A program made the position numbers and the translations under genes. DNA of 64,000 bases, from NCBI RefSeq assembly GCF_005876855.1, contig NZ_QLAE01000014.1:1-64000 (forward strand), given 5' to 3'. Positions 7,273 to 43,393 of the stretch are shown here, piece after piece. Positions within the stretch are counted from its first letter, which is position 1. Each line of letters begins with the position of its first letter. The DNA is from Stutzerimonas nosocomialis. GTDB lineage: Bacteria; Pseudomonadota; Gammaproteobacteria; Pseudomonadales; Pseudomonadaceae. The notes beneath the pieces are model-generated. The model was not told where the DNA came from. It worked only from the letters and a program-made list of their open reading frames with translations, and did no database searches.

Positions 7273-7683
7273 GGGTCAATCCTTCAAAAGTTTAGGTTGT
7301 TAGAGCACCGACTTTTCCCACTGGAACCTGCGTGCTAACGCTGATGGAGATGGCACACAAGGCAGAGCGTCGAAATATCGACCGGGACGAGGATTGAAAC
7401 CGAAGGAGGGGTTCGCCGAAGACGACTACCTGGGGACTCAGCGGCTGACGATGGATTCGTCGGAGCGCTTACCGGTTCGTGGATACCGTTGGGCGGCTCG
7501 CTCGCTGTCGTGACTGTCATCAGGCTGTACGCAAATCGCTTCCCCGTCCCTCAGGACGACTCGTTCCAGTCGCAACCTCGTCAGTCCGCCTTGTGGGCGA
7601 TGCAGTCACGGAACGGCTCGGCTGGTTGGCTGGAGCGCGCTCCGGAGGCCTTTTCAGGTCCTCTGGTTAGCGGGAGCGAGGCC
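7273..7683 (-). other. Probable long untranslated leader of aceA
   Basis: About 400 bases between the proposed aceA promoter and the start codon hold no convincing gene. The only open frames are short and lack ribosome sites. If the promoter at 7684-7712 is real, this is a long 5' leader that could carry post-transcriptional control. No known riboswitch was recognised. Confidence 0.4.
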
Positions 7684-42980: not shown

Positions 42981-43009
42981 TTGCATGGGTGAAAGAGGGT
43001 GGTTATAGT
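42981..43009 (+). promoter_or_regulatory. Promoter of intron-containing tRNA-Leu
   Basis: TTGCAT (42981-42986), a 17-bp spacer, TATAGT (43004-43009), 30 bp before the mature tRNA 5' end. With the upstream terminator this makes tRNA-Leu a separate transcription unit. Confidence 0.65.
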
Positions 43010-43038: not shown

Positions 43039-43353
43039 GCCCGAGTGGTGAAACTGGTAGACACAGGGGACTTGAATCAATTTGAGCCCTCCGGAGGAAA
43101 CTCCAGAGGTGAAGCCCGTCAAATTCGGCGAACGCCCTGGATGCTCGATGCATCCGAGCCAACGCCGAGCCAAGCCCGATGCGTAAGCGCCGGGAAGGTG
43201 TAGAGAGCAGACGGCGGGCACCTAAGGCGCAAGGCTAAGGTGAAGGCGTGCTCCAGACCACGAACAGCGACGCTGCTGGCGGTGAAAGCCGAAGTGGTAA
43301 GAAAATCCCCCGACTTAACCGTCGTGCCGGTTCGATTCCGGCCTCGGGCACCA
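43039..43353 (+). tRNA. tRNA-Leu (UAA) interrupted by a group I intron
   Basis: Exons are 43039-43073 (35 nt) and 43302-43353 (52 nt); joined they give an 87-nt class II tRNA-Leu with encoded CCA. Acceptor GCCCGAG pairs CTCGGGC, anticodon stem GGGGA pairs TCCCC, loop CTTAAAA gives anticodon UAA, the variable arm is CGAC/GTCG and the T-arm GCCGG-TTCGATT-CCGGC. The intron splits the anticodon between U34 and A35. Position after uvrC-pgsA, tRNA-Gly and tRNA-Cys matches glyW-cysT-leuZ of E. coli. Scanners expecting an uninterrupted tRNA are likely to miss or mis-call it. Confidence 0.93.
43074..43301 (+). ncRNA. Group I (IC3-like) self-splicing intron in tRNA-Leu(UAA)
   Basis: A 228-nt intron. 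The 5' exon ends in U (43073) and CTT can pair with the guide GAG at 43084-43086, giving the conserved U.G splice-site wobble; the intron ends in G (43301). Helices drawn by hand: P2 88-96/101-109 with GAAA loop; P3 114-118/215-219; P4 125-129/164-168; P5a 139-144/150-155; P6 175-178/191-194 with P6a 181-183/188-190; P7 205-209/249-253; P8 220-223/238-241 (add 43000). Core blocks such as GTCAAATTCGGCGAA and GAAGGTGTAGAGA resemble the Azoarcus tRNA-Ile intron as I recall it. No homing endonuclease is encoded. Confidence 0.93.
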
Positions 43354-43360
43354 ATATCGA

Positions 43361-43393
43361 AGCCGTCTCTGTTCAAGCAGAGGCGGCTTTTTT
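43361..43393 (+). terminator. Terminator after tRNA-Leu
   Basis: An 11-bp stem (43361-43371 with 43378-43388, one wobble) and six T residues, 8 bp past the CCA end. Confidence 0.92.

Follow-up and report, generated by a model that had tools for sequence, protein, structure and literature searches.

On its forward strand, the window (the whole analysed stretch of 64,000 nucleotides of Stutzerimonas nosocomialis DNA) contains a tRNA-Leu(UAA) gene at 43039–43353 that is split within the anticodon, between U34 and A35, by a group I intron of 228 nt (43074–43301). That this feature of a pseudomonad is a group I intron follows from sequence analysis, and self-splicing is predicted. The split gene is the only UUA-reading tRNA that we found in the draft genome, and in beta- and gamma-proteobacteria its relatives are located at the left end of integrative elements. 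For these relatives, the target, the cut, the matching replacement and the intron in the core of this replacement are shown at the sequence level. Taken together, we consider it likely that an intron-split, sole UUA tRNA represents a family spread on integrative elements, which replaces the host gene broken upon insertion and is hidden from the integrase, and that the copy in the window is a resident leftover.

The split tRNA-Leu(UAA) gene and its intron

The 5′ exon (43039–43073, +) ends in ...GGGGACTT, with U34 as its last residue, whereas the 3′ exon (43302–43353, +) starts at A35 and encodes the CCA end, both as delineated from the sequence and by ARAGORN. The intron between them, with its terminal G at 43301, is indicated by the Rfam model RF00028, ARAGORN and covariation; the preliminary description of this DNA had placed all of these boundaries exactly, including the insertion between U34 and A35. 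By eye, a putative promoter-like stretch (TTGCAT ... TTATAGT; 42981–43009, +) lies 5′ of the split gene, and the TATAGTCC motif, in the same or a similar form, precedes the eight unsplit tRNA-Leu genes of the genus that were read. On the 3′ side follows a terminator-like hairpin with a T-run (43360–43393, +), which resembles one behind several element-borne copies; no comparable hairpin was seen behind the eight unsplit genes compared (all by eye).

Plain ARAGORN did not detect a tRNA at 43039–43353 and Rfam at its gathering threshold gave no report for the split gene, illustrating how a tRNA can drop out of annotation. When introns were allowed, ARAGORN returned a tRNA-Leu(taa) interrupted by a 228-nt intron. 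After joining, the exons yielded an 87-nt tRNA-Leu(taa) fold. Using an E-value threshold, RF00028 matched 43064–43256 over model positions 1–253 with E = 2.4e-10 and 45.1 bits, below the curated gathering score of 50 bits. This score is a reporting threshold, and the intron assignment is based on the E-value, the structure and the covariation. The Infernal search with RF00028 that the preliminary description had proposed as a check was hence positive by E-value and fell short of the gathering score. Genome-wide, the intron was the sole RF00028 match at E ≤ 0.001 (E = 5.3e-10), and the match was lost under stricter filters.

The features expected of a group I intron could be located along the + strand. 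An internal guide GAG (43084–43086) pairs with CUU of the 5′ exon in P1, placing the U34·G pair at the splice site. P2 (43088–43109), closed by a GAAA loop, showed two-sided changes in seven of its eight pairs. Based on RF00028 and covariation, the 5′ strand of P3 (GCCCGUC, 43114–43120) pairs with 43213–43219, P4 (43125–43130/43163–43168) encloses P5 and P5a within 43125–43168, and the P6 region spans 43170–43198. The 5′ strand of P7 (GAGCA, 43205–43209) and its partner TGCTC (43249–43253) were 100% paired, with a two-sided change in one sequence only (L096). The full-length model match and the covariation thus both point to a conserved P3–P8 core with pseudoknotted P3/P7. From the covariation analysis we further delineated P8 (43220–43241), the inner part of which was the weakest helix, with 88.2% of cells paired and no two-sided changes, as well as P9, P9.1 and P9.2 (43258–43297; GAAA loop).

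For the covariation analysis, 34 introns were picked from 97 extracted ones (99 tried; L101 and L151 omitted). The drawn P2–P9.2 helices were paired in 96.4% of 1859 cells, compared to 89.5% for shuffles and no more than 41% in the slide control, which favors the drawn structure since it was derived from one of the 34 sequences, that of the window. Two-sided changes occurred in 25 of 55 pairs, a number equalled by none of 500 shuffles, and many core residues were invariant. The preliminary description had read a group I intron in a pseudomonad tRNA-Leu(UAA) with a GAG guide, U34·G at the splice site, an intron-terminal G and pairable helices P2, P3, P4, P5a, P6, P7 and P8, all of which is borne out by the sequence, the 45.1-bit match and the pairing across the 34 introns. 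Close to the intron start, GAGCC was present in 96 of the 97 extracted introns, and by eye the remaining one (L096) has GAG; the terminal G in all 97 is a requirement of the extraction pattern. Position 34 was U in 71 and C in 26. These 26 belong to tRNA-Leu(CAA) loci (L104, L113, L135, L165 and others), where C34 faces the guide G and a C-G pair replaces U·G at the splice site. For tmRNA, PMC11915505 reports introns in which C pairs with A.

The genome is a draft assembly in 86 contigs with a completeness rating of 100%. A further intact tRNA-Leu(UAA), which the preliminary description had named as an observation that would speak against its reading, was not found among the 46 RF00005 genome hits, the nine long ones of which were read and comprised five tRNA-Leu (CAA, UAG, GAG, CAG, CAG) and four tRNA-Ser. 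Likewise, the spliced tRNA sequence matched the split copy alone in its own genome. No TTA codon was present in the two counted window ORFs having Pfam matches; this rarity of UUA counts against our reading, in which a cellular need for tRNA-Leu(UAA) is presumed. Elsewhere in the window, the small RNA SrbA was located at 7434–7667 on the − strand (136.5 bits).

Relatives of the split gene on integrative elements

Among 56 genomes of the genus, including that of the window, the spliced tRNA was matched in 54 and gave no match in two. The gene was split in nine of the 54, each confirmed by ARAGORN with introns, and contiguous in 45, eight of which were read and confirmed as tRNA-Leu(taa). These unsplit genes were mostly 71–83% identical to the window exons, and one genome (G008) had an unsplit gene with element-like exons at 89% identity. 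This gene (L049) and the split gene of G009 (L047), with similar exons, apparently occupy the same locus without and with the intron, respectively, a candidate for clean intron loss or gain. As a separate observation, a tRNA-Leu of G049 read as CAA (L002) has a group I intron earlier in the anticodon loop, matching RF00028 at 59.6 bits.

Just upstream of the split gene, five of the nine genomes contained a native-type tRNA-Leu 5′ half (G006, G033, G036, G066, G017), which was not seen in the other four (the window genome G000, G059, G009, G011). In three genomes the native 3′ half was found further on, so that the two halves bound 68 kb (G006), 47 kb (G033) and 14.5 kb (G036), and they overlap by CTTAAAA, seven nucleotides that make up the whole anticodon loop. 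The host tRNA-Leu is cut at this sequence (UAA group) or at CTCAAAA (CAA group) and left in two halves. Just inside attL and in the same orientation, the element carries a tRNA-Leu of the host's isoacceptor with its loop split by the intron, an arrangement of which the equivalent with tRNA-Leu(CAA) exists in a sister group.

At the other end of the elements, the integrase gene starts about 170–180 nt from attR. In G006, this is a tyrosine integrase with Arm-DNA-bind_3, Phage_int_SAM_3, Phage_int_M and Phage_integrase domains, and in G033 a PF00589 match adjoins attR. In the two elements examined for Trb-type conjugation genes, G006 and G033, TrbI lies next to the split tRNA; the G006 element also encodes TrbL, a TrbE-like protein, a T2SSE-type ATPase, a coupling protein, a DUF3363 protein (relaxase match below cut-off) and ParA-like and ParB_N proteins. 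G006 combines conjugation genes with an integrase and att sites in a single element, the predicted gene content of an integrative and conjugative element (ICE). In the G036 element, transport, regulatory and metabolic genes were present in the ten ORFs scanned, and an arm domain was found on a 77-residue piece.

Another kind of mobile element likewise breaks this tRNA and carries a copy of it. Directly after CTTAAAA of a tRNA-Leu(UAA), at approximately 8858–11415 of L045 and in a matching stretch of L046, lies a group II intron that itself contains a tRNA-Leu(UAA) gene. It sits in the attL half in L045 and in another tRNA-Leu, with the 3′ half following, in L046; its protein is encoded by two ORFs in the former and one in the latter.

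For each of 21 elements (15 UAA, 6 CAA), joining the 5′ and 3′ host halves yielded a tRNA-Leu carrying the expected anticodon, while none of 40 single halves (from 20 of the 21) did so alone. The 21 stem from the genus (3), the order and family searches (4) and the named genomes described below (14), with the Pseudomonas jinjuensis genome (G517) counted once. Both element ends were on one contig in G006, G033, G036, G517, G589 and G678, and on different contigs in G471 and G430. Searching from the integrase instead, a match at E ≤ 1e-215 was present in 8 of 398 Pseudomonadaceae genomes, and in seven of these, from four genera, attR in tRNA-Leu(UAA), the upstream half and the intron core were all found. 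Four of the seven were known from the intron searches (G006, G033, G430, G517) and three were new (G589, G471, G678). The intron pattern matched with zero mismatches in all seven, its backwards control once (G589, up to one mismatch). In the eighth carrier (G071), the integrase is near a contig end, the tRNA-Leu match is contiguous, and a tRNA-Leu core beside the integrase, the upstream half and the intron core are all absent.

In the order survey, the core pattern occurred in 10 of 390 genomes, corresponding to six tRNA-Leu(UAA), one tRNA-Leu(CAA) and three tRNA-Arg(CCU), identities that were assigned by ARAGORN and by eye, as ARAGORN labels three of the six tRNA-Leu(UAA) genes Phe. A tRNA-Leu 5′ half was located upstream of four UAA genes (G353, G246, G266, G430). 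The tRNA-Arg(CCU) genes (L087, L088, L089), from one family of the order, have group I-like introns, and no tRNA half was seen by eye in the 330 nt upstream of these introns.

Across one-per-species genomes, a 30-base core pattern matched at least 118 stretches, of which 80 were read; ARAGORN assigned 51 to tRNA-Leu(UAA), 25 to tRNA-Leu(CAA), two to Phe (tRNA-Leu(UAA) by eye) and two to none. The host 5′ half was upstream in 30 of the 80 loci and not seen in 50, with at least 300 nt of upstream sequence available in 76; controls gave 0/80 downstream, 1/80 shuffled and 0/80 in the other orientation or on the other side. It starts 111–288 nt before the carried gene. Carried and broken isoacceptor agreed in all 29 assignable loci (23 UAA, two of these upstream halves with one changed base in the core, and 6 CAA), the thirtieth (L151) being cut by the locus end. 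Among 21 named genomes from the 30 loci, 15 contained an integrase relative at E ≤ 1e-60, which in one case is a fragment, and six had no match at this level. In 14 of the 21 (8 UAA, 6 CAA), the relative adjoined a native 3′ half whose isoacceptor agrees with that of the upstream half. Both the 29 isoacceptor matches and the 21 joins come from related sequences and are not independent events. Integrase relatives without a tRNA-Leu core were left uncounted: those of the genus were 61–68% identical (by eye, 8 of 9 places shown), and those in the named genomes made up 8 of 22 matches, one being the fragment in Ottowia.

The window gene was matched by 1280 plasmid records, 1248 of them over at least 80% of the gene (two opened). 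Six phage records matched, none over 80% of the gene, and a phage origin was dismissed. Separately, about 0.7 kb from aac(3)-IId, plasmid NZ_CP139688.1 (L269) carries what by eye is a tRNA-Leu(UAA) split by a group I intron from a different lineage; ARAGORN reads this gene as tRNA-Stop and assigns it an intron of 223 nt. In an uncultured phage record of 595 kb (LR756511.1, L271), ARAGORN indicates a tRNA-Leu(UAA) with an apparent 700-nt intron. Rfam at gathering reported neither.

Probable origin of the window gene and proposed role of the intron

In the window, native tRNA halves were not found (best E 4.4) and no element was seen, the search for transfer genes near the locus covering four window ORFs; a match to the integrase of the elements was absent from the genome at E ≤ 1e-60. 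We placed the gene in a quick tree of 95 genes, in which 39 of 87 inner branches were open. The UAA and CAA labels require three changes, carried genes of different families are intermixed, and Lysobacter concretionis, G471 (Pseudomonadaceae) and a metagenome-assembled genome (MAG) share an identical carried gene. Achromobacter genes, none with an upstream half, group together and include one Pararobbsia gene. Two MAG contigs, in records named Mycobacterium (L146, 4.8 kb) and Chloroflexi (L148, 17.8 kb), have genes that group among the proteobacterial ones and are perhaps misbinned. The sequences indicate that the family includes element-borne and apparently resident members. The window gene branches near the base of the UAA group, beside other UAA genes, and pairs with G059, followed by two Pseudomonas genes without upstream halves (group support 84).

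Given this basal branching and the lack of native halves and integrase, the window gene could be kin of the source. The lineage of the window may have held the intron gene for long without ever being hit, and the elements may have acquired it from a pseudomonad, a scenario consistent with the grouping of these four genes, which we nevertheless hold to be doubtful. It is at odds with the 45 of 54 matched genomes of the genus that have an unsplit gene, mostly of 71–83% identity, and by eye the window exons and terminator look like those of element-borne copies. The window gene is probably a resident descendant left behind without its element.

In the elements, we propose that the tyrosine integrase would recombine at the anticodon loop of the host tRNA-Leu, leaving the host gene in two halves, and that the carried tRNA-Leu would replace it. 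The carried gene would be transcribed by read-through from the stranded host promoter, and splicing would join U34 to A35 to give a UUA-reading tRNA. As the intron parts the two core halves, the carried gene would escape the element's own integrase. Since the joined exons would recreate the target loop, the intron is what distinguishes carried from native genes at the core. We lean towards the view that conjugative elements use a self-splicing ribozyme as camouflage, the intron being selected to hide the copy from the integrases of the element and its relatives and rendering the host immune to a second insertion.

As elements carrying an intronless tRNA, which would allow a comparison, were not found, the intron could also be a passenger, with the element carrying a tRNA-Leu to repair damage and an old intron tolerated at a common site without any anti-integrase role. 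Related tRNA-Leu(UAA) introns without a visible upstream half (L096 in G057, L270 in Mycetohabitans) and the lack of this half in 50 of 80 loci would fit such an account, which we give a minor share of the probability: the intron form was present in all seven tRNA-Leu(UAA) elements found via the integrase, it is kept in both isoacceptor groups, and joining the exons would restore CTTAAAA flanked by GGGA and TCCC or similar, as in native targets. Decay of the intron or a silent locus, to which the sub-threshold Rfam score and the match lost under stricter filters might point, is very improbable in view of the covariation, the many invariant core residues in the 34 sequences and the gene being the only UAA tRNA found in the genome. 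If camouflage by the intron holds true, element traffic would account for much of the scattered occurrence of tRNA-Leu group I introns among proteobacteria, a group I intron would gain a concrete benefit, and a proposal made for archaeal tRNA introns would become a simple recombination question.

Comparison with known systems

The elements share a tyrosine integrase and a tRNA target, and the two examined also Trb transfer genes, with the Tn4371-like Trb-type ICEs that have P4-type integrases in tRNA genes. The usual elements rebuild their target by supplying one part, whereas the present ones leave it split and provide a complete intron-bearing copy in its place. According to PMC6563490, tRNA-targeting elements use mostly the 3′-distal region.

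In cyanobacteria and plastids, the tRNA-Leu(UAA) intron is located between U34 and A35. The statement of the preliminary description that these carry a group I intron in tRNA-Leu(UAA) agrees with a review (PMC4033280). The present intron is alike in being a group I intron in tRNA-Leu(UAA), but its lineage is proteobacterial, resides on integrative elements and is also found in tRNA-Leu(CAA). The tRNA-Ile(CAU) of Azoarcus carries a group I intron as well. The review tabulates group I introns in tRNAs of cyanobacteria, alpha- and beta-proteobacteria (PMC4033280), and the authors of tRNAscan-SE 2.0, which is not designed for such introns, report them in tRNA-Ile2 of Acidovorax and Burkholderia (PMC8450103). 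Compared by description, these introns and ours are all proteobacterial tRNA group I introns; theirs are in another tRNA, and the available portion of PMC8450103 mentions no link to integrative elements.

A prior description of such introns on integrative elements was not recognised in the open-licence PMC literature, which does not imply its absence from print. In tmRNA, another island target, group I introns occur across 21 phyla (PMC11915505). According to a proposal of Randau and Soll, cited in PMC4390854, PMC4090602 and PMC4033280, introns protect tRNA genes from integration. Of 39 tRNA insertions in Thaumarchaeota, 10 lie in tRNA genes that contain an intron (PMC6563490), indicating that an intron is not always protective. 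Common to the Randau and Soll proposal and the present system is the disruption of an att site within a tRNA gene by an intron; the proposal concerns archaeal hosts, whereas here the split gene is introduced by the invading element itself.
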